From Hermatobates lingyangjiaoensis (taxonomy: Eukaryota; Arthropoda; Insecta; Hemiptera; Hermatobatidae): a DNA stretch of 64,000 nucleotides. Below are positions 29 through 54,092 of the stretch, piece by piece. The notes under the pieces were generated by a model. It made no database searches. It was given only the letters and a program-made list of their open reading frames with translations, and had not been told where the DNA came from. The position numbers and the translations under genes were made by a program. Numbering within the stretch: position 1 is the first letter of the stretch; every line of letters begins with the position of its first letter. The stretch lies in contig JAPFBL010000008.1 in assembly GCA_026182355.1 (NCBI GenBank), positions 1,303,501 to 1,367,500 of the forward strand. Reading direction: 5' to 3'.

Positions 29-118
29 ACTTTTTAAATAGAGATTTACTTACTTTCTACAACTTCTAAATACTTGAACATTGTTTTTAATAATAGTATT
101 GACTAAAAGTGCATATTA

Positions 119-284
119 ATTGTAGGGTAAAAAGTTAATGAAATGGTCTCCACATATAAAAATTTAATTCTATAAACAACGCGTTTCGAACACGTAGTGT
201 TTGTCCCCAGTGTTCGAAACGCGTTGTTTATACGATTAAATTTGTATACGTGGAGACCATTTCATTAGCTTTTTGCCCTACAAT
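119..284. repeat. Foldback element (166 bp palindrome) with GAAACGCGTTG core
   Basis: The two arms are near-perfect reverse complements, starting ATTGTAGGG and ending CCCTACAAT. The centre holds two inverted copies of a GTTCGAAACGCGTTG block. The same block, less well kept, is in the foldback at 21362-21711, so both belong to one repeat family (family E of the hammerhead-like set). Here the CTGANGA part reads CTGGGGA, so the motif looks decayed. Confidence 0.7.
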
Positions 285-577
285 GAGTAAATACCACATA
301 ATAACTGATTGCACTACGTTACAAAGTGCATATTGATTTTTACCTTTACCCTACCAGCCTAGCCTAATTCAATACGTCGTAATCATTGTACACTGTAAGG
401 TATTTGTTAAAAGCTAGGGACTGGGACATGGCTGAAATTTGAGTTGTGGCCCTCAAGACCTTTCAAGTAGGTTAATCATGTTTTAAACATTTACTATATC
501 TGAAATATGCCCCAAATCTACGCAGAAACAGGAATCATGAAATTACTTTCAACAACTACATGAAATATAAATGTACC

Positions 578-864: not shown

Positions 865-3800
865 CTAAGGTTTATGCTTCTTCCGAGTGTTTCCAGTTGA
901 TTTCGTCCTTTTTTCAACTGTTGGCATACTTTTGAAAATCTCCTCATATTCTTTACTAGCAGTGGTCGCCGCTTCTTCGTTTGTATTTTCTTTTAATTCT
1001 GATTCTTCTCCTTCTTCATCGCTACTTACTCTTGGATAGCTTAAATTAAAATCTTTTCTGATTAAAACGCATGTCATTTTTGATTGGACATATTCCTGAA
1101 AAACAAGTAAAATATTGAAAAAAATGTATCCAAGTAAATTTACTGAACATCAGGGTGCGTCATAATTTGACATACATAAGAAAATGTATAAACAATATTT
1201 TATTTATATTTCAGACACGCTAGGAGAAGATGCATTTGAAGATAGAACAACGAATTTAAGTTAAGCTTATTATCACTTATTTATATTTTTTGGGGGGGGG
1301 GGGGGGGGGGGCACATGACCTCAAGGTGTCAAGCCTAACTTTAACTAACCTAAATGTGTGTTAGTTTAGTCCATCCCAAAAGGGGTGGAGCACTTATTGA
1401 TACTTTATTCGGAACATTGCTAAAAAAAAAAAGCTATAACCACCAAATTTCATGTCTAAGTTAACGATTTCCCTTACAATTCGAAAAACAATCTGGATAC
1501 AAAAATTGTTCTTTTTTAGTGATATTTTAAATTTTCACTTTGCCAAAACTGTGTTTCCACGACTTTCATTAAACTCAACATGATTCTAGCTTTTTATTTA
1601 ACACTTACTATATATAGTATGATGTTGCACGTAGAAATTGTTCTTCAAAAAGGCCAAAAATTTTAAAAAATTGTTCTCTAATGGTTATAAAGGTGCTTTT
1701 GAAGTATATATGTTTGTATTGATATGGATATTAAAGAAAAGATATTGAATTAATATTAATTATTAATATGATATTAAACGTATTAATATTAAAACTGATA
1801 ACACGGAGAGAGGTAGAAATCAGAGAATATTTGCATGGTTAACAGTAAGGACCAAAGAGTCTACAGCACTATCGTGATGCAACTAGTGCTAGCCTAACAA
1901 GTTCCGTTTAAAACTGGGTAAATGTAAGTCGCGCGGAGTAAACACAACATTATTCAATTATGCATAAAATAATTTTTCAAGACTTGATGGGAAAATCGGG
2001 TATAATTTGGTAATTTCTATGGTCCGAACTCAGTACACATAAAGACAGACAAACGTTTGATTTTTATAAATATAGATTATATTAGTTTGTAGAGAAACTA
2101 AACTTTTGTTTTTCCACCTTTTTTACGAAATTCCTCAGTTTAAACAATACTATTTCAAAAAATTAACTATGAACAAAAATATTTACCTTAAACAATAACT
2201 CTTTCGTTTGTAAATTGTGAATTCTGAAATGTCGATCCAAGCTAACCGACGCAATGTACGGATTTTCCACCGGACATGCAATACCTTTGATAGCTCCCAG
2301 AAAGCCTTTGTATTTATTCATTACTAAGCCTTTACTCCTGAGGTCAACAAGGTTCATCTGCCCACTCCCACTTCCCACAATAACGTGGCTGTAAACAAAA
2401 CGGTATTTTAATATTTCCTCGTGATTAATTGTAAATGATTATATAGCTCAATAAAAAAAAAGAGAAGAACATAAACAAAGGCAAACAAAACTACTTATAT
2501 ATATAACTGCAAAAAACAACACATAAAAAACGATAACACTTACTGGATCAATATGTAGAACCGAAGTTCATCATCAGGAAGAGAGTAGAAGAGAAGAAGA
2601 AGAAGAGGTACAGTGCGTTCAAGACTATGGGTGGAAGGCGATTACGATGAGACTATGAAGTCGCCTTCCACCCATAGTCTTGAACACACATATCTCTTCT
2701 TCTTCCTTTCCACTCTCCTGTATTGTTTTTTTTTCAGTTATTTATCTCTCCGGTTTGGACATTTAGTAATTTCATTTATGTATACCATATAAAAAGAGGT
2801 ATATAAAAAGATTACACATAAACACGTGAAATGACAATCAATGATCAAACCACAATATGAAATGGGAAAACAAGACTAAGATCTTTCAACGCCTTATTCT
2901 TGCATATAAACAATGAAAATCATCATATTGATTGGACAGGAGCTAAATTTATTACCTATGAAAAATCAATGTTGTTAAGAAATATTATTGAATCGTCTCT
3001 AATTAAATTTAATAGATCAAATATTATAAACATTAGTAATGGTCTCTTCAAACTTGATACTTTCGTTACGAGGGCAATAGCCTCTTCTAAGAGGGTTGAC
3101 AGCTAGCTGATAGTTTTTTACTCTTTCTTACTGTACTCCTTTGTTTCCCCAAACATCCCTTTCTGGACATTTGTCCTTTCCTTCACTTTCACTCTTTTTT
3201 AAATACCACTCTTCTGAACCTCTCACCAGATGTTTCTGCTTCTAGTGTTTCAGTCGGGTTTTTGACTCTGCCGAAGACCGCTTGTTACGGTTGAAAGATC
3301 TTAGTCTTGTTTTCCCATTTCTTATTGTGGTTTGATCATTGAGATATATATGTGTGTGTGTTGATAAAAATATCGACTGTGGAAATGAAACAAAATAAAA
3401 CTTTTATCAGGTTTCGATTAGTTCTTCAGATTCAAATCATACCCACATTGACAAAGTTTCAGTTTTTATTTAAAGCCTTCTTCATAAGCCTACAAAACAG
3501 GAAATATAAGAAATAATATAATCATTCAAAATTCAAACATACATCAAAAGCGCAAAAAGTTACAAATAAAAAAATACAATAGAAATTGTGACAATAGTTT
3601 AAGTGATAGAACCTACAAATCTTATTTTTTTAAACAGTTCTCTCACAAAGCTATTGTCAAATTTTTATTGTATATTCTTATTTCTAGCTTTTTACCCATT
3701 TTATGTATGTTTGATTTTTAAATGATTCTATTACGTCTATATTTCCTCTGTTTTGTACACCTATAAAAAAGTTTTTAAATAAAAACCGAAACATTGACAA

Positions 3801-10677: not shown

Positions 10678-10897
10678 TTTATTAATTCATATCATTAGCT
10701 TTAATAAATAGTAAAACGAATTCTGTATTTCTTAAAAAAAAATAACAACCTGCTAACAGCAATAATTCAAGTACTTTGTTGATATTTAAAAAATTCCATA
10801 TAAAATATATTAGATTGATTAAAATTTCATTTTTCTGAGGAAATTCGTAATAATAATAGAAGTTTATAAAATATTTTCTCAAAGGTTTACGTTTATA

Positions 10898-14900: not shown

Positions 14901-17900
14901 TTTCCAGTGACTTTCCTGAGTTTGCTATCTTCTATCCTGAGAATTTCCTGTTTAGTGTCGCGTCCTATACCACAGAAACGTTTTGATACTATCGCAGAAT
15001 TTCAAGCAAGATCTTATCAAAATGCATCAGCTGTCTTGTTCCCTTCTAATCCTCCCAGCCCTGTGACCAAGTGAAGAGAGATCCTGTTTTGTTGTTATAA
15101 AATATCAAGTGTATCCCTACAGTTCAGGACCATATTTAAACTTACGGTGTTTTTTGAGCTTCATGTCTTTACAGCTAGATTGATCAAAAAAAGCTCCAGA
15201 ACTCAAACTTCTCATATATTTAATTTTTTTTTCTTTTATATATGAACTAACTAATAAGTTGAGATGTTTTTGTACCACACCTTGCACAAGAAACTTTACA
15301 AGAAAATGACACCCCTCCCAATCAAATTAGTGCCACTTAGCCATTTCTAGAGGAGTACATACGGATATACATACTAACATTTGATTTTTATATTTATAGA
15401 TATACATACACCAAGATTTCACATTAAACACGACAAATTAAAATGAAGATCTAAACTACAATATGAAAATCAGAAAATGACTAAGATCTTAGATATATTG
15501 CTGATTTCCTTATTATAGTTAGAAGTTGATAGTTGATAAATTATTACTTAATAATATATAAATTCTATAAATTTAATACATACGAGCTTTTGAAGGTTCT
15601 TTAACGTTTACAGCAGTCCCGAAGTTTACAAGAATGAAGTAATCTTTCGTCCTACTTAAAAAATTGATACAAATAATACAGAAATAGTACAAAACCACCA
15701 GTTGTTGAACTAGTGCTCGCTTGATTAATTAACTAAATCAATTTTACATAAAATAATTACATTAATGGTTATATAAAAAGCTTTTACATAAACACGTGAA
15801 ATAACAATCAATGATCAAACCACAATAAGATCTTAGTCTTGTTTTCCCATTTCTTATTGTGGTTTGATCATTGATTAATGGTTATATATACAATATTTCA
15901 CATAAATACGTGAAATAACAATCAATGATCAAACCACAATAAGAAATGGGAAAGAAAAAAAGACTAAGACCTTTCAACCGTAACAGCGGTCAGCTTACGG
16001 GTTTTGACTCTGACGAAGACCTTATTACGGTTGAAAGATCTTAGTCTTTTTTTTCTCCCATTTCTTATTGTGGTTTCATCATTAATGGTTATGCAAATAA
16101 CAGTTATTATTAAGTAAATTATGGATAACAGGTATACACTGGTTAGTTCTGTACTGCTAAATATATTATACTCGTAGTTTAATTTCAACTTATTTACTTA
16201 TTAAGTAGATTATCCTGAGTCTAAATACAATAAAAACAAAATTATTTTGTCCAGTTTAACCAACCTGCGATAAATCTTCAAAAAGCCTCTCACTCAGTTC
16301 TTCAGTTAGTTTGGTTACCCAGAAGTGAACATCACTTTTAGACTTCAATGATGTTTTGCCAGGAAATTTCTTACAACAACCTATACTTTTAGATATCAAC
16401 CGAGGTATAACAGGTTCATACTCAAAGCCCCGAGCCAGATGATACAGCCATGATCTGAGAACAATAATTAAATTAAGTTAGGTTGCAGTGGCAGTCCCAC
16501 GAGAGAGCACACTCAGACCTAACATAGCTCTTTATGATACCACACAATGAACATTCTACATTGGGAGTCCTAAATTTGCCTTACCTCCAGTATATTACAT
16601 TATTATTATTATGTAATATACTTTATTACTTTATAAAGTTAACAGAAATGAGGATGATTATGTTGACAAAAGAAAAATCATTCACTAAATGTATCGTTTC
16701 AAAAAATGATTCTCATATTTCGGATGCACACCTACCCACCCACCCAACACATATAGACTTCATCGAAAAATGATTCAGGAGACCTCAAAACAAGTAAATC
16801 TGTCAAATCCCAAAATTACGATTTTTTTTTCTGTGATCGTTATTAGTTTTTACTTATAGTAAAGTAAGAACTTCTAAAATTGCTCAGGAGATCTAAAAAC
16901 GCGAAAACCCATCGAAATAATTTTTCCATGATTTTTATTCCTAGTTAAGTAAATGTTATCGAACCTTCAAGTAATAAACACAAGTAACAAAATTTCTTTA
17001 AAGATTCTTTAAAGTTTACGGCAGTCCGTCCCATCATTTACAAGCATCAAGTAATCTTTCATCCTACTTAAAATATTTACCCAAATAGTACAAACAAAAC
17101 CACCAGATAGTTGAACTAGTGCATCACTAGTTATCACTGTAACATCAAAGGCCTTATTTTCCTTGCTCAAAAATTTTGCTATAGTTAACTTAACTTTTGG
17201 CTCTTGTACTCCGCTACGGATTTTAATAGTCAAGAAATATAATTCAGTTTTCATAACAATTCATTCAGGAGAATTGTAGGTGGACTAGTCTTGCCCAAAG
17301 TAATATGGTTTTGGAAAGCATTCATTTATTTTGAAAGGCGTTATAGAATTCATTAATTTTTTCTTAATTATTACTCGGAATAGCTATAAATTCCGATGCA
17401 CATCACAATTCCAATGAGGACTTTTGCTTGCTTTCTCAATTCACTAATGGCTTAGACACAATCATTTATCCCATAGAAATTTTACCTAGCATATTGGATT
17501 CGATTTATTCTACCAATTTAATTACAAACTTCACATTTTACAATAGCATATGTCGAAATTCAGTTTTTACGCTACTTAATTCAATATATACTTTCTTTAG
17601 GTAGACAAAAGATTTAACATAAACAAGTGAAATAACAATCAATGATCAAACCACAATATGAAATTGGAAAAAAAGACTAAGATCTTAGTATTTTTTTCAC
17701 CATTTCATATTGTTATTTGATCATATTTTTTATAGAAATAAATGAATACATACCCGGTTTTCTCGTCGAACTTGTTTTGCAGTTCCTTTTCAGAAAACTT
17801 GATAAGATCAGACATTGTTTTACTTGAAAGACTGTCGACAATTCTGTCACCAAATTTTCCACCTAAACTTCTCAACTTTTTTACTGGAAGTGTTTTGTAG

Positions 17901-20900
17901 AGAATAGGGACAGACTGATGAGGCAAGATAGTTTGTTTTTTGGGTTTATTGAGTCCACATACTACCTTTGCTAGAATCTGTAAATTAGTTTCGTAATATA
18001 CAATTCTGGAATGTTCATAGATACATCGTACCTTTTAAGAAATATATATAAAACTAAATGCCGAAACTCGGGATCGAACAGGGACGTTTAAATATTCAGC
18101 CTAACACTGTATACATCCTTTGAGCAATTTAGTCTGTTGTTGGAACTGATCCTGAGTTTTTTTTATGAGGAGTAAAATGAGACTTACATTGTTATATATC
18201 CACACAAATTAATTTTTACAAACTTTAATTTCAAAGTAAATTAAGTTTAAAAAAAGGACTGATTGACAATAATAAAAAAAACATACATTAGAAAAAATAT
18301 ATAAAGTCATATGAAAAACAAGCAACATAAGGTTGAAGAATAATTTGAAGTATAATTTATACAATTTTAAAATATAAGGTAAATTCACGGAAAGAAAAAG
18401 CATAAACGAGATCATAAAAACTCACTACTATATTTCTCGTCATTAGGCAGAAAGGTATGAGTCATTCGAAAGACAAGAGAGAACTCACATATTTCTACCA
18501 GATGACGAGGTAGCCAAAATATAGCAGCGAGTTTTTTTTTAAATGTCTTTTATTGCTGTGAATTTGTTTATATAGTACGTGGAAATTTAATTAATTGCAT
18601 ATATGTCAGCTAGCGGATAGTTTTTTACTTTTTCTTACTGTACTCCTTTGTTTCCCCAAACATCCCTTTCTGGACATTAGTCCTTTCCTATGCTTTCACC
18701 CTTTTAAAATACCACTCTTCCCTCCCACTCTTCTCAACTCCTCACCAGATGTTTTCTGCATCTAGTGTTCAGTTGGGTTTTTGACTCTGACAAAGACCGC
18801 TTGTTACGGTTGAAAGATCTTAGTATTGTTTTCCCATTTCTTATTGTGGTTTGATCATTGATAGTTTATGTGAATGTGATAGTTTATGGTTTCACGTGTT
18901 TATGTGAAATCTTTTTATATATGTATATATATAAACTAGATTCACAGAAAGAATTCACATAAAAAAGATCACAGAAACTCAAACATTTCGACCTCGTCGT
19001 CATTAGCTAGATAAAGAAATCACGCAACGACTGAGTTCATATCATTCAAAAGACACACTCCCACATCATATAAACACTGAAAGTAACTAGACCCTTTATG
19101 AGTGTAGCCCACTAATGTGGGAGGGTAGACAAAGATAATAAATAAATAAATATTTCTTATCCTATGAACTAAAGAAATACAGATATGTAAGGAAACATAT
19201 CTTATTAATTTTTTTTTCTATCATCTGTCTTCATTTATTTTTTATCCTGGTGACCATGCAGTCGAAATATGATAGTGAGTTTTAGTAATTTCTTTGTTGT
19301 GTTTTTTCTCTGAATTTAGTTTATATGCGCAGTACTTGGAATAGTTTCATTTAATAGGTATATATTTATCTACCTTTCAACATAAAAAACATTAACAAAG
19401 TATTTTCCATTCTTCATATAAAAACATTGAAAGTAACAAGGCCCTTTATACAATGAGGTGTCAGTTACGAGTAACGCAACAAAACGAATCAATCTGCTGA
19501 AGTAACTACTAATATAAAAGTTTAAATCTGTTTTCACAAAGATCCATACAATTTAGTATAAGGTTAATTAGTAGAATGGTACTATGACGAACCTTATTGT
19601 GAGCTATACCTGCGGAGCAATGGAATCCTGTTTTTTCAAATACATCATTCCTCATTTCTTCCACGATCTGAGCTGCTACTGCTAAATACTTATTAGCTCC
19701 ATCGTTAAACTCGTTACCATACACATCATTCAGCCAGTCCTTTGTACTTTCTTCTCGATCTACTAAAATAAAATGTTTAAACTAAATACATCTTTATATA
19801 CATTCATCTAAATAAATATACTGTATTTGACAGCATAGAGGACACACCCCCATTTCAGCAGTTCCAGATTTATGAAAAAAAATTGTCAGTGTATTTAGGG
19901 ATATATTCCCGAAAGCAGTTTCACAGCACCTTACAGCAGTGGTTTTCAACCTGTGATCCGCGGATCCCTGGTGATCCGTGACGTTTACCCAGGGGATCCG
20001 CAAGACCTACAGATTCACAATGTGCAATTAATGTATTATCAATGTGTACACGTCAATGTAAGTACAGTAGCACATTATCAATGTAATTAGTGCATCTTAT
20101 CAAGATAACTCGTCGTTCACATCTAATACCAGCAACTTTCGGTAACGTTAGGGAAGAACTGCGAGCCAAAATTTGAGTCGGCCAGTTCAGTTATGATGAC
20201 GACCTACGTCATTTAATTGAAACATTTAATTTAGCCAATACGTGACGCTCTGATTGTTTACTTCTTGATCTGGACTCATTTTGGATTTTAACTGCAAAAG
20301 AATATCCATCAATCTCGAATAAGGCTCTGCGCATTCTCCTACAGTTTTCTACATCATACCTGTGTGAAATAGGATTTTCCACCATGACGAACATTAAAAG
20401 TCAGAAAAGAAATAAACTACTAGCACTTGAAGAAGAGATGCGTGTATGTCTTTCTAAAACCAGGCCAAACTTTCCAGTTCTGGTCAAAAATCACCAAGGA
20501 CAAATTTCACATTAATTTGTAATTCTCTTGAATAAAAAAATTCAGATAGTACTGTATTGATTTTTTTTGTGTGTTTATAAGCCGTTTTTATTTCAATAAA
20601 AAAACGTATATATACATGTATATTTATGTACAAGGGGATCCGCAAGAATAAATAAGCTCCTCGGGGGATCCGCGGCTGCAAAAAGGTTGAAAAGCCTTAC
20701 AGGCATTGTAAACATAAAGTTGATAATTTGATTTTAAAGTACGGTAATAATACTGCTAATAATAATAGAAACAATAAAATAACGATGCGTGGGGTTTAGG
20801 TTGGGTTAGGTAGAAGTACTGATCGTACAAATCCGGATGAGTAAACCAATTTTGTATTGCTAATTGGAAATATTAAATATAAAATGAAATAGTATTATAA

Positions 20901-23378
20901 GGGATTTAATACTACTTTTACCGTCATTAGCCCAGTACTACTTTATACTGTCTTATTTTACACTCTAAACGTTCAAAAACTTATTTTTGAGGTAGGTGAA
21001 AAAATTCGATCATTTCGTCCTTTGGAGAGGATGTTAAGCCTGTTTTGGTATTATGAGCGTATCTGAGCTTTTAAATCATACCAAACATACTATCATAAAG
21101 AGCCTAATGCCTTTGGAATCTATTTCACCGCATTCTGAAGTACGAATCCTAGTAGAAGAAAGGGACAACAAACTTTCAGCCCCCAGAAAAATACTAAAAA
21201 GTGAAAACCAATACATATGGGCATTGGAAAAAACAACAAATTCAAACATAAATCTCTTTCAAGAAAAAACCAATGTATTTTACTGAACAACTAAAATATA
21301 AACAAATATACTTTTATTAATTAAGTGTGTAATCTGTTATAGTGTGGTATTTACTCATATTGGTGAAAGTATTAAGTCTCAACACAAAAAAAGTTTATTA
21401 TAAGAAACTAATCAACTCGTTTCGAACACTTGATGTTCTTCTTCAGGTTACTCTAAAAAATATATGCATTTAAGAGCTTTAGGGCATAGGGGCGAATTCA
21501 TTAAAAAGAAGGATCAATTTAATATTATTCCCATGTTATCACTCAATAGTGTCAAATATTGTGTTCATTTTAATTAATCAGTCCTATGTTCCCAAAGCTC
21601 TTAACTGCACATATTTTTTAGATGTAACCTAAAGAAGAACATCAAGTGTTCGAAAAGCGTTGTTTAGTTTCTTATAATAAACTTTTTTTGTGTGGAGACT
21701 TAATACTTTCCCGAATATAAATGTGCTTTCTAAATAGTACTACTAATTTAAAATAGTTTATTGTAATATGTTACAAGAGTAATACCTTTATCACTTGAGG
21801 AATAACCAATAATGTAACTAGTGGGGAGATCTCCTGGTGTTACTTTAGGCTTTTCTTTTATCCTTTCTTTAACTGCAGCCGATAGGTCGATAAATGCTTC
21901 ATCGATACTTGCCTTTTCAACACAATCACTAAAGGAACATATTACTGTAAAGACCTCTCTGCTTGCATCTCGATATCTGAATCAGAGAAACCTATTAATT
22001 GTTTCATTATTTCAATGTTTTCAGTTTTGTTAAGACTTAAGAGGTCGTATAGAGCTGGGTGGACTCAAATGAAACAATATGTCAAAACAATTCTAATCAA
22101 CTAAAATCCATTTGCTGATGCCTCCAAAAAAGCTACCTTACCAAAATTTTTTGTAAAGTTATTTCTGAAAGTCGTCTCACATTTTATGTAACATAAAATA
22201 TACGGCTGAGAAACAATAGAACCAATTCTGTGAATGAAATATGGAAAAGTTATGGTCGGCATTAGCAACAAGATAAAACAGTTTTTTTCCATATTAAATA
22301 AAAGGATGAACTAACATTATTTTACCTAAACATTTTTTAAAAATATGAGTTTCAAAATGAGCTTGTTTAGAATAATATAAAATAACTAATAACTAATTGA
22401 AAGAATAAAATAGCTAACATGATTCAGTAGTTTTATTCTAGCACAATGAAAAGCAAATGAATCAAAACCTTTTGACGTTCATACAGAAAAAAAGAAACTA
22501 CTGTGATCACAGTAGCACTTCTAAGGGTAAAAAAACTCACTATGTGTTTATGAAATATTGAAATGTTTAACTGGAGGAAGGAAGCAGGGCTAAGCAGTAG
22601 GGAATCTAATAGACAAGATTAGAAGTATTAAGGCAGTTTCAACAACCCCTCGTTTTTCTTTCCTACAAAACTAAACATGTTTATTTCAGCACTTAAGAAC
22701 ATTACGTCATTATTAATTTTAAAGGCTCCAAATCAAAGAAAATAGTTATAAATATGAAGAAAAACCACCTTCTTAAATATTACAGTCTACAAATGGAATA
22801 TATAATGGGTTTTAAATAATGACGGATATTACACATTATTTCGCCTTATAAAGGATAAAAGGCTTACCGAATAAAACTTTTAAACACCTTGGAAATGTAA
22901 AATTTATCCCAAGTTCCTAAACGTTTATAAAATTGAAAAGTTAATATATGTAACAAAATGTACATGTAAAGGCAAATATTATTGGTGTATTTACAAACTT
23001 CGATAGATCTGCTTTTTCCCTGACTGTGGCAACTCGAACTAGTTCAATTTCAGGGCACTGTTCTCTCGCTTCATCTCCTCTCATATATCTCGTGACACCC
23101 TTAGCTCTGGCTTCATAATTGACAGCGATAATTCTAGAGTAAAAATTCATTTACAAAGAAGTTAAACCAAGATATATTTTACTATAAAATGTTCGAACTA
23201 AAACGGAAAGAAGAGAACTTTATAACAATATTAATTGGATATATTTTTACCCTCCTCCTTTCCATTCGTTGTATTGAACAACTGCCAAAGGTTTCCCTGC
23301 AAGCAACGGATTCAATTTTGTTTCAACTTGACAATAAAAACAATCCATGTCAACTAACACTATAATTCTGTCAGTCAT
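10898..23378 (-). CDS. POLH: DNA polymerase eta (Y-family translesion polymerase)
   Basis: Eight exons on the minus strand: 23378-23251, 23133-22999, 21976-21786, 19762-19593, 17977-17754, 16454-16265, 13798-13635 and 11936-10898. Phases join without a break to 2241 nt, 746 aa (human protein 713). It copies past UV photoproducts in the nucleus. Visible marks: IVLVDMDCFY with metal ligand Asp10; YNEWKGGGIIAVNYEARAKG; SIDEAFIDL with Asp113-Glu114; HCSAGIAHNKILAK; CGLNKPKKQT; KLRSLGGKFG; IGCCKKFPGK; then the little-finger domain and a long low-complexity tail. A UBZ finger (Cys673, Cys676, His688, His692) and a final KSLKSFFIS PCNA-binding motif close the protein. Exon 2 must end at AA|GTTTGT to keep the frame and give LSKYRDAS. 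Nearly every intron carries a transposon remnant. The key polymerase residues are all present, so the gene looks functional. Confidence 0.95.
11519..11647 (-). repeat. 66-bp in-frame duplication inside POLH exon 8
   Basis: Two adjacent units encode FSNLLNIKEKTT... and FSNLLDIEEKTT..., each 22 residues, ending YKDS and YKDT. DNA identity is still high (TCTTTATAAT(C/T)GTTTCTTTCAA in both), so the duplication is fairly recent. The first unit keeps FF, the second has CF. Confidence 0.85.
12246..12641. mobile_element. MITE with TIRs of about 90 bp
   Basis: The left end GGGATAAGTATAGTGAATCG and the inverted right end GGGATAAGTATAGTAAATAG continue as matching inverted repeats for about 90 bp, including ACATTGTTTCTTATGTCAAG in both arms. 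The centre is AT-rich with no coding. It lies in POLH intron 7. No clear target duplication was found, so the superfamily is unknown. Confidence 0.75.
14360..14755. mobile_element. pogo/Tigger-like MITE with TA duplication
   Basis: Ends are CAGTAAAACCTCGTAGTATG on the left and, inverted, CAGTAGAATCTCGCAGTGCA on the right. TA flanks both sides (14358-14359 and 14756-14757). The CAGT..AACCTCG end is typical of pogo/Tigger elements. The 396-bp body has no transposase. It is in POLH intron 6. Confidence 0.75.
15780..16085. repeat. Family A PLE end repeats, inverted pairs
   Basis: Two palindromic copies lie back to back. 15780-15875 is a short inverted pair of the CAATGATCAAACCACAATA block. 15895-16085 is a longer pair enclosing the hammerhead-like motif on both strands. 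The plus-strand motif at 16006-16046 reads GACT, CTGACGA, extra A, a degenerate stem, GAA, AGATCT, T, AGTC. Located in POLH intron 6. Confidence 0.75.
16474..16588 (-). repeat. SINE fragment, 5' truncated
   Basis: Read on the minus strand it matches the 3' part of the SINE copies at 25.7 and 27.5 kb: AATTTAGGACTCCCAATGTA, then TTCATTGTGTGGTATCA, then a tail with GCAACCTAACTTAA. No tRNA-like head remains. Located in POLH intron 5. Confidence 0.65.
17600..17725. repeat. Family A PLE end repeat, collapsed inverted pair
   Basis: CAATGATCAAACCACAATAT is followed within 60 bp by its own reverse complement (CATATTGTTATTTGATCAT), meeting at AAGATCTTAG. The hammerhead core has been lost. Located in POLH intron 5. 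Confidence 0.65.
18430..19020. repeat. Decayed hammerhead-like relics around the family A copy
   Basis: At about 18430-18530 two inverted pieces read CTAATGACGAG...AAATATAG and CAGATGACGAGGTAG. At about 18968-19000 the minus strand reads CTAATGA, C, GAC-GAG-GTC, GAAATGTTT. Core bases are mutated (CTAATGA for CTGATGA), so they are remnants. Confidence 0.4.
18605..18925 (+). mobile_element. Family A PLE 3' region, second long copy
   Basis: Co-linear with 3105-3345: TAGTTTTTTACT, then TACTCCTTTGTTTCCCCAAA, CATCCCTTTCTGGACATT, CACCAGATGTTT and the hammerhead-like block at 18783-18824 (CTGACAA in place of CTGACGA). It ends CACGTGTTTATGTGAAATC followed by a (TA) run. No protein remnant precedes it. 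Located in POLH intron 4. Confidence 0.75.
19937..20694 (+). mobile_element. hAT element copy with 8-bp duplication CCTTACAG
   Basis: CCTTACAG stands at 19929-19936 and again at 20695-20702. The element begins CAGTGGTTTTCAACC and ends GGTTGAAAAG, so the right terminus lacks its last bases. A GGGGATCCGC block repeats near both ends. The 758-bp length is far short of an autonomous hAT. Located in POLH intron 3. Confidence 0.8.
20276..20515 (+). pseudogene. hAT transposase C-terminal dimerisation domain remnant
   Basis: Frame +1 from TCA at 20276 reads SFWILTAKEYPSISNKALRI, then FSTSYLCEIGFSTMT, KSQKRNKLLALEEEMRVCLS and a TAA at 20513-20515. The FW...EYP...SYLCE.GFS...K...RN.L signature is that of hAT dimerisation domains of the ZBED5/FAM200 type. 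No DDE catalytic part or BED finger remains. Confidence 0.8.
21362..21711. repeat. Foldback element with two hammerhead-like motifs (family E)
   Basis: Outer arms GGTGAAAGTATTAAGTCTC and its inverse GAGACTTAATACTTTCCC enclose inner arms with the motif. On the minus strand (21449-21412): AAC, CTGAAGA, A, GAACA-TCAAG-TGTTC, GAA, ACGAGT, T, GAT. On the plus strand (21626-21664): AAC, CTAAAGA, A, the same stem, GAA, AAGCGT, T, GTT. Both palindromes look like mutated ACGCGT, which is intact at 119-284. Located in POLH intron 3. Confidence 0.75.
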
Positions 23379-33200: not shown

Positions 33201-36200
33201 CCAAAATACATTCCGGTGTTGGTTAATAAACTAAGCATAAACTTATTACATTATGTATATATAAATTAATATGTATTCAATATCTTGTTTTTTCGGTTAC
33301 TGTTTTCCTGATTCAGATGGTTTTTAAAGATGATGATGATATTCATTGTATGTTTTTTTTTCAATTTAGGTAGAATTGTTGCTTATTATTGTAAAAATTA
33401 TTTTAATTCATTTATTAGATCTGTTCAGAAGTTATATAAGTAACTAAGGTAAACATTAAAAATAAAACAGATTAAAGTGGTTTGTGGCTAATGAAGGATC
33501 TATTTTGTTCAATAGTTTTAAATATATCTTTAGTTTCAACTCTGAAGTAAATGTTTTTGTAGTTTAATCTTATGTTTCACACGGTCTTTCCACTTTCTGT
33601 TAGTAGCGGAAGTTGGACTGATTGCGGGATACAGTTTTTGTCCATTGTGATAAGTGCAAAGACATGTTAAATTTACTTTTTAAATAATTGTTTACAGATT
33701 TAAACTGTTGAGAAAAACAGTTTTATTTGGTAATTAGCAAAACATAATTACCATAGTGCTGGCATTATACTAGGTTGGGATAATCTTATCCAGAAACAAT
33801 AGATTTAATTTGAAAGCTCTTTATATATCTTAGTGATTTTTATAATTAACATTATAATTAAGTAATAATTAGTAATTAATTATCATCTCAACCATGCAGT
33901 CCCCATCTGAATCGGGAAAGAGGTGTAACCGTCAATCACAATATGAAATAAATATTTTGTAATAAATTAATTGGGGTGGTTGGTTTAAGGTTTTGTCCTA
34001 TCAACAACTAGAGCAACAACCTAAAGATATGTTACGTCATACTCATCTACCAAAATCACATTTATGATTTAGTTTTGACTGTTCTCACAATATGAGTACG
34101 GGAAATGGTCTTAGTATGAATTAGTTTTCGTTAATTAATACTGAATAACTCCAATTACGGATTGCACAACTAAGAAGTTTTCGCGTTATTGCTTGTTAGC
34201 TCTTGTATAAAGCTGTATGAATCCTGTAGGTCTTGTGATTATCTTTTACTATCTTTTTAAACAAGACACGTCTGAAGATGAAGGGTATATTTCTGTTTTG
34301 CGAGTTAGAGGAGTCGTTTTCTCTGCTGGTGTGTGTTGAGTAGTGTAAGTTGCGAAGAGTGGTCTGGAGGTGTTGGTGGTGGTGGAAGGCCGGTGTGACT
34401 GGGGTTTGTTACAGTGTGCGGTGCCAGGTACAAGACCCGCCCGGGCCTCACCTACCACTACACGCACTCGCACAAGGAGAAGAGCACGAGTGGGGCCAAC
34501 GCTGCCGCCGCCGCCGCCCCGCCCACCAACGGCACCGCCACGTCCTCCACCATGACGGGGCTGCTCTCGGGCGGCACACTGCTCACCTCCAGCGCCGCCT
34601 CTGCTGGCCTCATGCCCACCGCCCCCGACTCGGTCGTCCAGCTAGAAGATGTCCCTCCCAACGCCTCGCCGCCGCCTCCCTTGCCTACTGCCTGGACCAA
34701 GTTCCAAGACACCTACCTCACTTATCTTAACACTCCTGGTAGGAACAAACCCTCTCTCTATCTCAACTTGCTTTGCCTGCATCGCTTGAACCTTTTAACT
34801 TCTGCACTTGTGTGTTTCAGTTTTATGCTTAAATTACACTGTTGTTTAACACAACATATTTGATACATACTTTGTCTATTAATTACTAGTATTTCAATAT
34901 GATTAAAGCTATTTAGGCATTGATCTTATCATTTTTCTTTTTAAAAAGCAGGCGTTTTAACTTTGGTGTTTACTTCATGAGAAACTTTCTTTTCGGAAAA
35001 TCTTTTAATACTTCATTTTACATTCTGTACTCACAAGGAGTTGAAAATAATAAACAGCCCTCTAATGACTTAAAAATAATAAATATTAATTCGTTCTCTT
35101 CTACAACTCCTTGTATTCTGAAGTGTATATATCGTAAACTTCAAAGAACTAGAAATGCTATTGAAAAAACTTGGAGCTGTCATATTTGTTAGAAATCACT
35201 AAGTCACTGATGTTACATAAGGAAGACTAATTTGATATGTATACGTTATGAATCTTATAAATATTCTTATCAAGTAAGATAATTTGATAAATCTTGTACA
35301 AATTCTTTTTAAGATTAATATAGGTATACAACTGGACATGTCTTCTACTGTTGATCACGATTAATCTGGTTACAGTCACATAAAAGTTTAATTTTACTTA
35401 TCTGTTTACTCATTATGTATCTATAACTATTATGAGTGTTGTCATAAATTACAATTGAATGTGAATGGCTGGATCTCCTACATATGTCTCTCTATTAATT
35501 AGCGATTTCAACATTGAAGAAGAGTATCGCACAGAGGAAAGTATCACACTTACAAACTCAAATTTTTGGGCAATTCGTCTTCTGGAGAAAAGAGAAAGGG
35601 AAGTAACCCGTTAGGTTACTTGCCGTTACGCCTTTTCCCCTGAAGACGGATTGTCCGAAATTTTGAGTTTGTTAGTGTGTTTATTTACTCTGTGTATTAC
35701 TCTTATTCGATTTTGAACTCGTATTGAATCCAGTTTAGATCCTCTTTCCGATTTTTAAGTGAATCTCGATTAATTAGGATATATATGTATATTAAACAGT
35801 CATTTTCGGCTGATTAAGGTTCTTTGAGGGTAATTGCAGTTGAATTATGCCAACGGTTGTTGACCCATGTACACAAGTTCCCATGAGACCACCAAAGTTG
35901 AGAAACATCGGGCATAGTTAGCACTTGGATGAGAAACGCTGCTTACCTTTGGCGTCTCCAGTAATATGGCTCGCCCATGAGTTAAAGAGTGTCGAATCAT
36001 GCACGTATTCATACTGCCCACAATTCTTGTAAGGCACAAAAGATGCAGTCTTATGACATCAAGTCTGTAACATTATACAATGCCAGTGGTTTGCCCAAAT
36101 GTATAACGGATAGCTGAATTGCACACTTCGGTTGTGTAAACTTAGATTTTGTTAACGAATTTGTCGTTAACTATTCAATTTAAACAATTTTGTTTTTAAG

Positions 36201-39200: not shown

Positions 39201-42200
39201 CGTTGTCCATGTTTTTTTTTTAATAAAAAGTTCGTTGACATTCATAATGAAGACATGGCCACTCACTTTAACTGGATTAATTTGTTTAATCGTTCAGAGT
39301 GATATCTGGTATTACATTTTTCCTGATTACAATTTAATTCTAGTAAAAGTAGTTGATACTACACATGTAAAATCTTCCCAGTTTTGCTTTATTTCGGTAT
39401 ATATTTGTGATAAGAAAAGTTGGGGAAATACTGTTTCTCACAAATGGGGATTCTAAACAACTGGTTAAACATGTAAATGTTTTCAGTACTGTTAAACATT
39501 TTCCTTTATGTTTAACAAAAAACAACACCGTTTTGAAACATCTCACCGCAGCTTATTTAAAGTATCTTCCAAATATAATTACCGATTTATTGATGCAGTA
39601 TTTTTTGGAGAATGGTCAATTTGTCAGCATACGATATAGTTTACATTATTTTATTTACTTTAATTTTTATTTTCAAAAATTAGAAGCAGAATCTACTGTA
39701 TGCATCTCTTTATTTTATTTTTGAACTTTTGTTTTATGGTTTAGATTGATTCTCCTTTTTTTAATATATTATATACTTCCTGTTATTAACGTCTAATCTA
39801 TAGGAAGAAAAGCACAAATATGACTAATATCTTTCAACCAAAGTGAGTGTTCTAAGTCAGAGACTCAGTCAAAACATGACGAACAGAAGTCCTATAAAAG
39901 TCCTTCTTAAATTTCTGTATGTTCACGGGATTTAATGTCAGGATATGTAGCAACCGTCGAAGGTTAGAGTAATATCCTTGTGGAAGCAGGACTGGGGGTT
40001 TTATCAATCTGGGTCACTTACACATGACCCTGTACCGTATCTGAGGTTTGAACTAAACAATTTAGGTCAAGCAAACTGTGTTAAATGTACGTTCATTGAT
40101 GATATGTTCTATATTTTAGCAATATTTAATTTATTTTATCCCGTATGTAAGTGCTAATAGTACCTATGAATTCTATGCAGTGATGTGATTTAATGTACAT
40201 TTCTTTGGTTCTAATTATTTGTTAGACCAAATTTATTTCATGAGATATAAGTATTTGATGTTTAATTTTAGTGATCAAAGTTTGTAGGAGTGTTTGATAA
40301 ATGTTTTTAAATTCTCTATTCTGAGGATTGATTTGCTATTTTAAAATGTCGGAAGATTTTAGATATGTCGTCAATCACTCTTTTATTGAAGATTGATTTA
40401 CTGAAGCCAGACTAGTCTCCGTCTTTGTGATTGTGGAATGCCATCATTTTCATGTTGGAATAGATTCAGAAGCAGCTAAAGATCTCTAACCGACTTGTTA
40501 GCAACCTCGGATTGAGCACTAACACTGTTTTCTTTAAAACCAAGATTCTTGCAGTTTGTGGCAGAGTACTGCCAATGTGATACGCACCTCTGATGTGATG
40601 TAGTTAACTGTCAGTTGACGATTACTCATTCAGTGAATTCTCAAAAGGCGCAAATGCTGTCATCTGTAAATCTTGACCTTGGGCTTCGATGATAACTTTT
40701 GTGTTCTGCACTTTCAGGTTTACCTTCAATATATTGGTTCAACTAATCATTCGATTATGAGACAGTGTAGTGCCCCCCCTCCCCATTGTAACAAACGACT
40801 TAAAATATCCTAGAGCTTAATCTCTTCATTTGTTAAAACTTTATATGTTGTGGTACAATCGAAGGAACATCTTGCTTATCATAGCAGTGCTAAGGACAAA
40901 ACAAAGTAGAACAGCAGATAACGAAGCTGTTTCTTCTCCTTAACATAGCTATCTTTAATCTTCCATTAAGGTGTCAAGTGCGGAACTGTTTGCTGAGTAC
41001 TCGTGATAAATTATCGTCGTAATTCTAAATTATATGCAATCCAAAATGGAGAAAACATCACACTTCTATTTTTCCGTGTGCCCTTTAAAAGCTCAGGTGT
41101 CCTGCTATGTTATAAAGCAGTGTTACTTAAACTTTTTTAGTTCAGGGCGCACCTATGAAACCAAACCAAAACTTTGGGGCGCATCACTGATTTTATTATA
41201 GAAAATTTAGTCCTGAGATTTGATAACAGGAAATGATTGGAAATTAAAATGTATAGTTTTTTTTTTAAGAAAAAGAAAGAAAGAGAGAGAGAGACAGCGA
41301 GAATGAGAGGGAGGGAGGGAGGGAGGGCTAGTAAAAATGATTTAAATCTCTGAGTAAAGGCAAAGAGGAAGTATTATCCATTGATGCTTAAAGATTAAAG
41401 AAATTTACCTTCCAGTTCAAAATATGAAGTGGCCGAGACTTGACTCAGACTTGAAAACCACATACTTGGTGTTTTCTCAAATAAATTAAAATGATGCAAA
41501 ACTAAAATATAAATGTGTTATATCAACTTAATCTTCCGTTATTTTGGGGCGCACCTGGCTACCTTCCAGGGCGCACCAGTACGCCTGGGCGCACCGTTTG
41601 AGAAGCACTGTTATAAAGTGTGATGGCTAAATTATGAAGCTCTATGTTCGTTCATACGGAGCTTAGGCATGGTAGATACCTGACCTACGTAAAACGAGTT
41701 ATAATTAATACACTCCAAACAGTAGTCGCGGTTTCTGTAGGTAGAAGAACAGTTGGCTGAATAGGGATGGTTTTTGTTCTGAAGTGTGAGATTAGAGTAG
41801 GAGAGGGGGGGTTAATGATAGTTAATCATAACTTCCTCGACATTTACACAATGTCATTTCCACAGGTAAACTATTGAACCTCCTGTATGTTGAACATCTG
41901 TGAGAAAAGAAATTACCAAGTTCAGGAGGACGTCCTTACGATAATCGTGTGGTTCCTCTGTATAAGGGCGGTAGTGGTGGAAGGGAAGATTACAGCCTCG
42001 AGAATAATTTTTTGATGAATATACCTAATTTATGCATCCCTGAAAGCAAGTTTTGATATATTATTCAAAACGTAACGATAGCAGGCAGAAACCTGCTTTT
42101 TTATAAGTTTTTCTATCTTCCTAAATAAGTATTTCGTTGTTGTATCTAAACTATATAACAAATTTCCTACACAGTTAACAGTCAACATGTTTCAACTCTT

Positions 42201-45200
42201 TCATAGATCCATCTTCAGGACGAGAATTATTCTCAATAGCTTTTCCCTTTATATAAGCAAAGTACAGTCAATTAGAGGGATTAAGGTTGTTTGTTCAAAG
42301 CTGGGGGGGGGGGGGGGGGTGTTGAGTGATCTAAGGGGTATTACCTAGGCCGCATCTATTTGGCCTTGTATTCCAAATAACTTAAGGCTCCTATGGTTGT
42401 TTTCTAATTGAATGTTGATATGGGGTTTCATTTTTTGTATACATACACAGCCTCAATAATTTTAAGTCTCTGTTGATCTCTTTCTCTTTTAATTATTTTA
42501 GTGCCTGCCACAATTTTAGTTCTGCCAACTATGGTTACGTTTTTAATAATATGTGCTTAAAAGAAGGACTGCTACCAAAATTCAAAATCGACCGCTATTT
42601 CGGTCGAAATATTGAAAAGTGAATCTGTGTTATGTTTCTGTCTATGTGGCACAGTTTATTTTAAGTGTAATCTGTCCTCCCGGAACGTTTCCGTTTATCA
42701 TGGTATATATATATATAAGGTATAATTAAAGTTGGTAGCAGCTTCTGCGTTGACCAATTTCTGACTGATGTTCTCTAGTTTCCTAACTAGTTTTCGGTAA
42801 CTTTCGTGTATTTTCCAAAGGAGTTCTGGTAACGACATGAAAGGAAAGAAGTTGAACACTAAACACTTTAAACTAAAACTATAATTTGAAACAAAATCTA
42901 AAAAACAAGCTTTCGGCTCACATTAGCCATCATCAGGTAAAAAACGAAAATATTAAACAAGGTAAAAAGGTACAGTACAAAGGGCAGTTAACAACTAACT
43001 ATTATAGAAAAGCAGGAAATGCGGAAGGGAGGGAGGTGTGAGTGGGAGGGCATGCAGGGCAGGGCACTGAACCCCAACTACCTACCTGTCCCCTCACCGA
43101 CCTCTCTTACTATCTTAAAAGTATTATCAAAATTTTTTTGAACTCGGTATAGCTCTAAGGTCACTATTTTGAATATTTAACGAAGGGTTATATTCTTTAA
43201 TGTATAGGGCTTCGAGTATATGCAGTCTGATGTCGTCTTGGAAGCTCTGCAAGATGGTTGTCCAAGAGGGACAACATGCTTTGCCTTTTGAATTCTGATT
43301 AAAGTTTTGTTAATGAATTGTTCACCTGTGCACAGTCTTAATCTTATACCCCTGTGTTCCCGCGTCAAGTCCTTCGGGATCCATTTTTGACACACATGGT
43401 TTGCAGTATTTAAGATCTCACTGAAACTTAATAATAGTATCAATGCTACAATAATGGTACAATGCCTAATAGTACCAACGCTAATTTGAACTTTTTCTGT
43501 AATCATTTCCACTGTGACATGGCGGTTGGCAAAGAATAATGTCATCAATTCGGATTAACAGTTCACCAGAACAGTGTTCGTTAATCACTCAGTTTTCGGT
43601 CACATGAACTGTTTTACCCATTTGTAAGCATTTTCGCGTTCTTACAACTTTCACCATATACTTATTCATTCTTGGGTTCAGCAAGTTAAAGATCTAATCA
43701 CAGATTGTTCCATCAAAGTGGAGTTTAATTATAAATCGATTCATTACCTTCAACTCAATTGTGAGGTTATAAGCACAATAATTAGCTGATTAGGGTTCAT
43801 CAGTGATGCCAACTTAATTGCTCTAAAAGTTCTGAACTTGTACTACCAAATCTTATTTCTCCAGATCAATTTCTCTTTGATTATTAAATAATCCTCGTGT
43901 TGTAGTCATAAAAAAGAGTTTCAGAACAAACACGTGAGTGGTTACTTTGCATTGGTTTTGGAATTTATATCAGGATTTCTCAATATAAACCATTTTTGTT
44001 TGTGCTAAATAATCTAAAACTACTTATACCTAGAATTATATATCTAAACAATTTTAATAGATATATTCATGAAAAATTTCCATGATCCAAAAAGGACAAC
44101 AAACGTTAAAAAAGTAAACTATACGTAAACAATAAATAGATAGAGACACTTTGAGTTGGGTTTTCCAACTGTTTTCACATTTTTCGCTCTATTTTGTCTT
44201 CCCTCCTTATCACCGTCAAAACGAAAATCAGAGACTATCATGTGTGTATCTATTTATTGGTGACTGTTTACTAGTAATCGAGGGATCATCACGGAGGCAG
44301 TGCCTAAGTATTAAGCTGTTTTCTTTAGCGGTAATGATGCTGTTTAATAATTTCCTTCAAAGCCGGTCATCTTACTTGTATTGATAATGAATGTACCCCC
44401 TATAGTAAAGATATATGTCCTATCCTGGATTAGGAGTTATCCTTTAATAATTAATGACTGGATTAATTAATTAGGAGTTAATTCCACTCTGAACATTATT
44501 ACTGCTGAGACTTCTTTATTCGAAATACCATTGTTTATCGACTGTTCTAGTTTTTTATGTAGCCAGGTTTTGCTACCAATCTGTACAAATATGTATATAT
44601 AATAAATTGACAGTAAGAGGAAACATACAATAGATCACAAAAAGTCACTAGTATGGAGTGAAAAATATCATGTTGGCTCAAACATGCATCTTGTTTAACT
44701 ACTGAAATCGCCGCAATAAATCGAGCTTTAATATACCACAAAAAATGCTCCAGTAAATAATTTTGCATTCGGCTCAAGATCATCTTTACAGGCGCTCATA
44801 CGAACTTTTCGATTACCATTATTTTATGATGAGAGAGACCAGAGCTCTGATGAAGACTGTTTAAGAAAGAGGGAATGAAATAGTCGCCTACTGGATCCCT
44901 GTTCACTGCGACGTCATAGGAACGAGGTGTGTGACAAAGTTGTGAAGGATGCAGCAGCAATGACGCCCGTGTCGCTAATCCAATAATCGCTCTCTTCTGT
45001 ATTAAAGCTGTAGAGATAATATTCAGTGAGGAATGGGCCAGTTGGAGAAATTTACAGGAAGAACGAGAGCCTTGCAAAGACAGCACAATACCGATGGGCT
45101 TGCTTCTTTATATCGAGGGCAGTAAATGTCCCCTTCGTACAAAGCGATACTTCACAGCAATGGGCATATTCTTGTATACTCTACAAACCCCAATAACTAA

Positions 45201-51200: not shown

Positions 51201-54092
51201 TTAAAATGTAAAACTGCACTATTAGTCAGTATAAATAGTTAGAAATTGTCAGGGTTATTTAGTATTGTTTTTAGTCTCACTGTAGTCGCATTATTCTTCA
51301 AAAGTAAATTTAATACCATAATGGTTGGTGGATTGCATACTATAGTAGAAAATCGAAGATAGGTAGCATACTATAATATTACCGAAATTACCAAACTGAC
51401 TCTTAATGAATAATGGTAATTATAATAAAAATTAAACTGTGGATGAAACTAGAATTTTTGACATAATAAAAAAAGAAAGTTTGGATGCTACGACTCAAAG
51501 ATCGTACTATTTTAAAACTTTAAGGACTTGAACTTACCCCCATGTAAACTGTTATGGACTTTTGCTTTAACATATTACTTCCTTAAGAATGAACTCTAAC
51601 AATTACATTATCAATGTTATTAACCGTAAGATTGATAATGTTTGATACGATTGAAATGTTTTATCCTTTCGTTAAATCTATCCGAATGAATTTTTCTTAT
51701 TAAAGACTGTTCTATTTTCTTTGCTAATGAATGTATAAGGGAGGTGACTCATAAGAGTGAGTGTCCCTGAGGGACGCTTTGCCTCCTGATGATGATGATT
51801 GTCGAAATATAGAAGTGGTTTTCGTCTGAATCTATTTCATTTTTGCTTTAGTTATGATTTTTATTTAAGTCTTATAGACCGTATCATTTGATGTATGTAC
51901 TATGTATTTCATCTTTGAAAAAAGGGGAGTTCATTTTCATTTTAATATATATTAGAAGATAGATCAACTTGAATATTTAAATTTACATATTAGTTGAAAA
52001 AGTAGCAAAGAAGTAAAAAAAATGTGCTTTTTGTTTAATTATTACTATTGTGTTTCCTATATAAGATCCATATAAAAAAAAATGATCACAATTGTCTGTT
52101 GTGTACATAGTTTGTTGAATTGTGATGAAAAAGGGAGGGGGGGGGGTAGTGATTTCTGTGTTAATTTCTCCTTGATTTTTAATAAAAAATATCTGCCGAC
52201 ATAAGCCTCCATTGGTTTCGTTGGTTGGTTTGGTACAAAATGTAAACTCGGTAAATAATAATTTTGATTGTTCGGCCATTTATAGAGGAATGATAATTTT
52301 TCATAATGTTATAGTATTCTGTATTAGGTTTAAACAATAATTTAATCATAGGCATTGTGTAAAAGCATGAAAAATAAAATTAGTCTATTTGACTTTAAAT
52401 ATCTTCGGTTGATTTGTTCATACTTTAGCACGGAATTTCAAACAATTGGGTTCCATCCATCCCTGTTATGTGGAATGGCTAATTGGAAATACTCTATAAT
52501 TCTACTAATAAAAATTTATGATTATGCGATAAAGAAGTAAAGATCAAATCTTGTATCTATATATGTGAATTTTGGCACCGGATTGTAAATCCGGAATTCT
52601 GAAAGACACCGAAATAATAGGAATTTACTAAAATTGTCGGTGTTTTTTTCATTATATATATATATAAAAACTTTTTTTTCTTCATGGAGTTTGGTCAGGG
52701 TTAATATACAGAATCACCTTTTCGCCAACGTTTCGTCTTTATTTTAAGACATCCTCAGGGCTATAAACTAACAAAGAACAATGGACATTTGTCATATCTA
52801 CTTTACAATCATTATAACAAATTCAAAAAACTTACTTACTCAAGTTTTAAAGTAAAGAGTAAGTAAGTTTTTTGAATTTGTTATGATGATTGTAAAGTAG
52901 ATATTGACAAATGTGCATTGTTTTTTGTTAATTAATAGCCCTGAGGATGTCTTAAAATAAAGACGAAACGTTGGCGAAAAGGTGTTCCGTATATTAACCC
53001 TGACCAAACTCTTTGAAGAAGAAAAAGTTTTTATTAGTAAATTATATATATACTTCAAATAAACTGTGACATATAGACAGAAACATAACAAAGACTCACT
53101 TTTTAATATTTCGACCGCCATTACGGACGAAGATAGTCGCTCTGAGGCCTTTCGTTTTCACGTCGTCAGAGAGCAAGTGAATAAAAGTTGTAGGCAGGTT
53201 ATGAATTTTGATTTAAAGTTGGATTAAGATTGGCATCATTGACAGTATTTTTCCCTATTACAGTCGAAATAGTGTTGATTTGTTTAACGATTCCTTCAAT
53301 TAGGAATTGATTCAATTCCTTCTAATTGAAGGAATCGTTAAACAAATCAACAGTATTTCGACTGTAATAGGGAAAAATACTGTCAATGATGCCAATCTTA
53401 ATCCAGCTTTAAATCAAAATTCATAACCTGACTACAACTTGTATTCACTTACTCTCTGACGACGTGAAAACGAAAGGCCTCAGAGCGACTATCTTCATTC
53501 ATTTGTGGTGAGTTACCTGAATATTTATATCACGTGTTATTATGACAATTTTGTATATATATATTAACAGATTCAATAATATATCGACCGTTTGACGGAA
53601 TAGTTGTGTTATCTGATACGGATTTGGTCAATTTTCTAGGTTCAAAAATCAAACTCTCGTTGCCTAGGGGCAAAGAGAAAAATTTTCTTTGAACCCAGAA
53701 AATTGACCGAATCCCGATTAGATAACACACTTATCTATCTATCTATATATATATATACTAAAAATAAACTGTGAATGCCGGTCGAAATATTGAAATTGAG
53801 TCTTTGTTACGTTTCTGTCTATGTGTCACAGTTTATTTTTAGAGTAATCTGTCCTGCCGGAAGTTTCCGTTTATCATGATATATATATATATATATATAT
53901 ATCAATGATCAAACCACAATAAGAAATGGGAAAACAAGACTAAGATCTTTCAACCGTAACAAGCGGTCTTCGTCAGAGTCAAAAACCCAACTGACGAAGA
54001 CCGCTTGTTACGGTTGAAAGATCTTAGTCTTGTTTTCCCATTTCTTATTGTGGTTTGATCATTGATTGTTATTCCACGTGTTTATGTGAAAT

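Follow-up and report, generated by a model that had tools for sequence, protein, structure and literature searches.

The stretch of DNA analysed here (the window; 64,000 nt of the Hermatobates lingyangjiaoensis genome, contig JAPFBL010000008.1, positions 1,303,501-1,367,500; genome of 910 Mb in 1629 contigs) carries short repeats of nine named families, A, B, C, D, E, F, J, L and M. A first-pass annotation had attributed to all of them the layout of a hammerhead ribozyme whose stem III is a palindrome, and had proposed a custom descriptor with shuffled controls as a check. A rule-based descriptor (CTGA.GA, then 0-3 extra bases, a stem II of at least 2 bp, GAA, a palindrome beginning with A, a non-G base, and stem I of at least 2 bp) matched the window 10 times, in seven of the nine families: A (2), B (2), C, D (2), J, L and M. 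In a comparison sample of 200 kb, consisting of 20 stretches (L001-L020) picked by coordinate only from ten contigs of the same genome and independent of the window, the descriptor gave 30 matches spread over 11 stretches, 12 of them in family A. By contrast, 179 permuted cores gave on average 0.011 matches in the window (maximum 1) and 0.050 in the sample (maximum 3), the 63 alternative trinucleotides in place of GAA gave 0.03 (maximum 1) and 0.13 (maximum 2), and each of 20 dinucleotide shuffles gave 0 or 1 match, in window and sample alike. These three sets of controls rule out a chance origin, and thus the shared layout claimed in the annotation is real, lies far above chance and is recovered in DNA that its author had not seen.

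Core, stems and orientation of the hammerhead copies

The core was further described with a relaxed search of the window and sample together (264 kb), which required the core, a stem II of at least 3 bp and GAA, and required neither palindrome nor stem I. This search revealed 62 sites with one base between CTGANGA and stem II, against 1 site with none and 6 with two; among the 40 descriptor matches, exactly one extra base was present in 38, none in 1, and two in 1 (family L). The canonical arrangement, in which stem II begins directly after A9, is therefore missing in nearly every site, and the extra base, which already stood in the order given by the annotation, is nearly fixed and possibly a new core variant. 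Stem II opens with G in 60 of the 62 one-extra-base sites, and an exact palindrome directly follows GAA in 42 of them, although the search did not demand one. None of these 42 sites has G as the extra base, which is A, C or T, or as the base that follows the palindrome, where the annotation had already stated that G does not occur. The palindromes observed were AGATCT, ACGT, AGCT, AGGCCT, ACGCGT, AATT, ATAT and ACATGT.

Covariation was analysed in an alignment of 15 rows representing families and subfamilies, in which the core is invariant because the rows were chosen for it. For stem II, three pairs were 93.3% standard, with a covariation of 0.749 compared to 0.270 in shuffled alignments (0/500) and at most 0.219 in slid versions, in rows that came from matches already required to form stem II, which favours pairing; two-sided changes and further pair types were not clearly above the shuffles (378 and 87 of 500). 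For stem I, 43 Watson-Crick pairs were found compared to 19.1 when partners were dealt among the 15 rows (0/100000), most rows having been picked with stem I in view as well. Stems I and II are formed by base pairing and covary.

The annotated details stood with exceptions. Stem I shrinks to 2 bp in families C and J and to 1 bp in the family B copy at 26656. The family A copy near 3264 retains its palindrome with a damaged core. In the window, family E has decayed palindromes, ACGAGT in the first copy and AAGCGT in the second, and family F has lost its own (GAAATTT). Intact relatives occur in the sample: E-type copies in L005 and L017 carry the ACGCGT that the annotation had deduced for this family, and an F-type copy in L007 carries AATT. 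Two E-type head-to-head pairs with ACGCGT lie at window 114-289 and at L005:4254-4322; the descriptor missed the former because one arm has a mutated core (CTGGGGA) and the other is truncated within stem II.

Among 37 neighbouring hammerhead pairs no more than 1500 nt apart in the 264 kb, 17 were head-to-head, 10 tandem and 10 tail-to-tail, while same-family pairs no more than 500 nt apart were head-to-head in 16 cases, tandem in 1 and tail-to-tail in 1. The family labels for these pairs were given by eye from the sequences, since a scripted rule puts mutated palindromes in the wrong family and does not separate F from M. The outer arms of the 16 head-to-head pairs were mostly 92-100% identical over the ungapped stretch. 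One transcript would thus seldom carry two nearby sense copies that could form a dimer in cis, and the tandem arrangement that would provide a dimer within one transcript is not the rule among same-family pairs at this distance. A nested foldback occupies the centre of the second family B pair (window 52793-52905), and further foldbacks, in which the descriptor lists no hammerhead, lie at window 12270-12619, 2599-2706 and 3418-3830.

Table 1. Hammerhead copies and associated coding remnants in the window (positions in nt).
Feature	Position	Strand	Remark
Family A hammerhead	3268..3302	+	Core damaged (CTGCCGA), palindrome AGATCT intact
Family A hammerhead	16010..16042	+	Stem III AGATCT; cleavage predicted after 16042
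Family A hammerhead	18787..18821	+	Core damaged (CTGACAA)
Family A hammerhead	53942..53976	-	Left arm of head-to-head pair
Family A hammerhead	53991..54025	+	Right arm of pair with 53942..53976; stem I 5' strand missing at joint
Family A head-to-head pair	17607..17733		Centre is the stem III palindrome AAGATCTT; ends set by eye
Family A Penelope endonuclease, C-terminal part	2870..3103	+	91% identity over 78 residues to long copy L041
Family B hammerhead	26573..26609	-	Left arm, palindrome mutated (ACGA)
Family B hammerhead	26656..26687	+	Right arm, palindrome ACGT, stem I 1 bp
Family B hammerhead	52727..52758	-	Left arm, ACGT
Family B hammerhead	52941..52972	+	Right arm, ACGT
Family C hammerhead	42907..42936	-	AGCT; stem I 2 bp
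Probable endonuclease remnant	43130..43303	-	5' of family C hammerhead, same strand; read by eye
Family D hammerhead	53144..53169	-	Left arm, AGGCCT
Family D hammerhead	53456..53481	+	Right arm, AGGCCT
Family E hammerhead	21414..21446	-	Palindrome decayed (ACGAGT)
Family F hammerhead	35640..35664	+	Palindrome lost (GAAATTT)
Family J hammerhead	51786..51811	+	ATAT, stem I 2 bp
Family L hammerhead	42184..42218	-	ACATGT; stem II mismatch; scores better with two extra bases
GIY-YIG endonuclease remnant, two frames	42372..42535	-	5' of family L hammerhead; E 1.35e-5 to L016 frame
Family M hammerhead	26987..27012	-	AATT

Link to Penelope-like elements

Upstream of the A, C and L ribozymes, and on the same strand, lie coding remnants that were read by eye as the endonuclease of Penelope-like elements (PLEs). 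Longer frames for comparison were found in the sample: a GIY-YIG domain in L011 reached the Pfam cut-off (E 2.8e-6, 28 bits), and two frames in L016 stayed slightly under it (E 2.4e-4 and 1.8e-4). The L016 endonuclease frames are followed by hammerheads of the ACATGT type, relatives of family L, and a tblastn comparison with a frame of L016 recovered the family L remnant at the E value given in Table 1 and the family C remnant weakly (E 0.001 over 31 residues).

The long copy of family A, L041, encodes in a single frame of 662 aa both a reverse transcriptase (RVT_1, E 4.6e-12, over the cut-off) and a GIY-YIG endonuclease (E 5e-4, below the cut-off with 20.8 bits against 22.6), which is the domain combination of PLEs, and its hammerhead lies 174 nt past the stop codon. 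A protein search revealed 261 relatives with E values of at most 1e-10 among 7995 candidates scored; the matches listed include Oratosquilla oratoria and Cherax quadricarinatus, both crustaceans. At least 150 genomic matches to the family A endonuclease were scored. At 14 of 20 such loci (L028 and L030 among the 20 overlap and show one and the same locus), the core, GAA and AGATCT were found 166-179 nt beyond the endonuclease match; three further loci lacked an intact core but kept AAGATCT at 164-207 nt, and three showed neither.

The ribozyme is accordingly located in a repeat beside a reverse transcriptase or GIY-YIG frame in A, in L and in the L016 relative of L, with weak evidence of the same in C. 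Families A and L are PLE pseudo-long terminal repeats (pseudo-LTRs, pLTRs), and the case for family C is weaker. The annotation had called the families unrelated; A and L, and less firmly C, are instead tied to one class of retroelement, to which the remaining families probably belong as well.

Ends and joints of the copies

The 5' ends of family A were surveyed in 47 arms aligned to a reference, all from unselected DNA (window and L001-L020), with both arms of a pair counted. The commonest start, in 21 of the 47, was the sequence TCAGTT at -53 to -51 from the cleavage site, 16-18 nt before the core, which may resemble an arthropod initiator. Among 15 head-to-head family A pairs whose arms lie close together, CCCAACTCAGTTGGG is a recurrent joint. 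Other arms began at -35 (4/47) or at -8, on the palindrome (3/47, all in the window and two of them the arms of one pair), with the remainder scattered and none at the cleavage site. As the commonest start lies upstream of the ribozyme, the commonest template would be an RNA that still bears it, and these data suggest that uncleaved RNA is used most often.

Joints on the stem III palindrome were also detected. A 20-mer representing two family A arms joined on AAGATCTT occurred at 201 genomic sites, compared to 3 for the tail-to-tail control, 1 for the reversed 20-mer and 1 for arms joined head-to-head on TGATCA, a second palindrome of this repeat; this last comparison is weak because TGATCA lies near the variable end of the arm. 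In 13 of the 16 sites read, both arms belonged to family A, and in 3 they did not by the script's rule. Arms were more alike within sites than between sites (0/2000 permutations; identical in 5/13 within and 17/312 between), which indicates that palindrome joints probably arose repeatedly; some may have been amplified from earlier ones. Only a small part of the head-to-head copies is joined on the palindrome. These joints are rare but recurrent, and their number in family A indicates that the palindrome may also serve to join two cDNAs.

The copies show further marks of PLE insertion, namely inverted pLTRs, a short tail on one arm and a target duplication. A tail of 31 nt was present on exactly one arm in 10 of the 13 read sites whose arms both belong to family A. 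L041, L047 and L049, the three copies at which the duplication was checked, lie between direct repeats of 12-13 bp.

Head-to-head joints at the exact cleavage site occurred at 40 genomic sites, compared to 2 and 0 one base to either side, while a TA control inside the arm, with the same two-base self-complementarity, gave 15. The 12 joints read were mutually different, starts at AGTCTTG recurred in several, and most had a symmetric arm of only 9-11 nt before a rearrangement. Given the TA control and the lack of 5' ends at this site among unselected arms, the cleavage-site joints are a suggestive hint of cleaved templates, and their use as proof of ribozyme cleavage was set aside. Seven of the 40 joints, 109-234 bp apart, form one array of inverted family A arms (G000:C1562:4966-5822).

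Other features were noted by eye. Two plus-strand frames of the window (27160-27504 and 34399-34860) resemble exons of a d4/DPF zinc finger gene, and the M and F inserts close to them may thus sit in introns. Two overlapping frames at 45914-46695 (minus strand) resemble a decayed mariner-type transposase. A frame of 408 aa at 10901-12124 (minus strand), with a possible UBZ finger and PCNA-binding tail, is perhaps DNA polymerase eta, and a protein search with this frame found no relative. A tandem repeat of about 66 bp at 8994-9292 keeps a plus-strand frame open. In the sample, frames of 903 aa and 487 aa at L003:5288-9419 (minus strand) resemble a non-LTR retrotransposon.

Interpretation and comparison with known elements

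Taken together, the repeats are most probably, at roughly 0.85, pLTRs and short inverted derivatives of several PLE lineages with minimal hammerheads of the dimer type. Each pLTR would encode a minimal type I hammerhead with the core CUGANGA...GAA, an A-U first pair of stem III and a non-G cleavage base; because stem III consists of just a palindrome of 4 or 6 nt, self-complementary between two copies, a full stem III would form only between two RNA copies. Judged from the sequences, RNAs of the window families would self-cleave, with the cut falling after the non-G base that follows the palindrome, and cleavage would take place as a dimer, probably aided by the element's own protein as in the element of Anolis. 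Insertion would start at AT-rich target sites, with reverse transcription proceeding inwards from both strand ends. The two minus-strand cDNAs would then be joined where their 3' ends are self-complementary over a short stretch; this joining would mostly fall at the RNA start, 16-18 nt upstream of the ribozyme, and in family A occasionally on the stem III palindrome. Two-ended target priming with annealing of self-complementary cDNA ends would explain the joints, the tail on one arm and the direct repeats; self-priming on the antisense strand, as proposed for rotifer elements, could make the joints as well.

Several results count against this interpretation. The Rfam hammerhead models, a search proposed in the first-pass annotation, gave no match in the window at curated thresholds or even at E 10, so the window copies fall short of the threshold for a canonical hammerhead; RF00163 had no match in the genome either, but the same search was silent in 14 of 14 control genomes and hence proves little. 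Nearly every descriptor match holds the extra core base that canonical hammerheads lack, and 6 of the 20 endonuclease loci have no intact hammerhead at the expected place. Pfam found no GIY-YIG match in four short window fragments, NCBIfam nothing relevant in three longer frames and a protein search nothing for the window endonuclease fragment, so that the PLE link rests on the longer copies elsewhere and on tblastn. With three PLE queries, tblastn detected no endonuclease similarity next to the window hammerheads of B, D, E, F, J or M, and their placement therefore rests on shared anatomy. The cleavage site is the 5' end of none of the 47 family A arms, and no palindrome joint was found in family B, the one other family tried and one whose copy number was not measured.

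The alternatives differ in what they make of the ribozyme and its palindrome. On one alternative, the main reason for keeping the palindrome is that it gives the cDNAs a 3' end able to self-anneal, by which two of them are joined during insertion, and the ribozyme is secondary or degenerate. This would agree with the excess of palindrome joints over tail-to-tail joints and over joints on the second palindrome of the repeat, with the likeness of the arms within a copy, which suggests a repeated origin, and with the lack of copies that begin at the cleavage site. However, the whole core and stems I and II are conserved too, palindrome joints account for just three of the 47 family A 5' ends, all in the window and two from one pair, family B has none, and the TGATCA control is weak, and we consider this explanation improbable. 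A core that is now a structure for protein binding or packaging and no longer cleaves is unlikely, too: the two strands of the core are retained across families together with the non-G cleavage base, and joints at the cleavage site far outnumber those one base away, though the TA control is high, whereas the extra core base, the 0/47 starts at the cleavage site and the insertion of Anolis ribozyme mutants (PMC11167929, in the portion available) speak for such a loss. A further possibility, tentative and rather doubtful, is that the palindrome has two jobs, in the dimeric RNA ribozyme and in head-to-head joining of cDNA, with selection from both, and that the extra base marks an adapted subclass.

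Short non-coding repeats with type I hammerheads are also known as animal retrozymes (PMC7229834, in part), but retrozymes spreading through circular RNAs are a very improbable source of the repeats described here, as near same-family copies lie head-to-head, not tandem, and A and L, probably also C, carry endonuclease coding sequence beside the ribozyme; this reading was rejected for want of tandem repeats of the hammerhead-bearing unit. The near-perfect inverted arms would be expected of DNA transposons (foldback elements or miniature inverted-repeat transposable elements, MITEs) in which the hammerhead pattern is a coincidence. The controls exclude chance, and the reverse transcriptase encoded by the long family A copy L041 contradicts this reading for that family; it was rejected, with a probability close to nil.

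The repeats as PLE pLTRs with minimal hammerheads were further compared with known systems. Cervera and de la Pena in 2014 and Lunse, Weinberg and Breaker in 2017 reportedly described minimal PLE hammerheads whose dimeric action was proposed or, going by the 2017 title, shown. An extra core residue between A9 and stem II is said to occur, with a normal stem III, in the CChMVd hammerhead (attributed to de la Pena and Flores, 2001), which thus resembles the present copies in its catalytic core and differs in being a viroid ribozyme.

The published sources that follow are cited, unless their full text is mentioned, for the portions available. Minimal PLE hammerheads without helix III, possibly active as dimers, have been described (PMC6155905, PMC7761336, PMC7229834), and the annotation's deduction of a dimeric stem III agrees with them. 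As the repeats share with these the type I order, the core, the missing or reduced stem III and the location in a pLTR, they are additional members, in another genome, of an already described PLE hammerhead type. They differ from it in the nearly fixed extra base after A9 and in the orientation of near copies: dimeric PLE ribozymes are arranged in tandem, an arrangement conserved according to PMC7761336 and needed according to PMC6466107, whereas same-family pairs no more than 500 nt apart are mostly head-to-head here. The hammerheads of Aedes aegypti have a palindromic stem and loop III for which a dimer was proposed (PMC3088659); their stem III bears a loop and pairs fully only in the dimer, while here it is loop-free and accompanied by the extra core base.

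Two elements offer comparisons for insertion. The Poseidon PAc element of Anolis is a PLE with a hammerhead and AT-rich targets that cleaves and extends both target strands in vitro, its ribozyme is assisted by protein, and uncleaved RNA is its main template, its ribozyme mutants inserting normally (PMC11167929), in line with a commonest template that still bears the ribozyme in family A. Its start codon is placed where stem II begins, C3 and G8 preceding it (PMC11167929), a position that would fit CTGANGATG and hence the same extra base. Joints on the stem III palindrome are not described in that paper, the text of which contains no word beginning with "palindrom-". The Penelope elements of the rotifer Adineta vaga resemble the present copies: their inverted pLTRs are head-to-head with palindromic joints, one pLTR bears a tail of 31 bp, and there are target duplications (PMC3846280); these duplications are 8-10 bp compared to 12-13 bp in three copies here, and self-priming on the antisense template, not two-ended priming, is proposed there. 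The term hammerhead has a count of 0 in that paper (PMC3846280). In the literature searched, as far as its text was available, no PLE hammerhead was found linked to inverted palindromic joints, to self-priming or to priming of both strands with microhomology.

A review regards the reason for weak dimeric ribozymes in PLEs as a mystery (PMC7761336, in part). In the present genome many families occur together, a core variant is nearly fixed, and the ends and joints of cDNAs are recorded legibly in the copies. This record suggests that both target ends may be primed and that the family A palindrome can serve in DNA joining, a second role that is possibly new. If the palindrome does have both jobs, then the RNA dimer, the protein dimer and priming at both target ends would belong together in a single insertion machine with two-fold symmetry.

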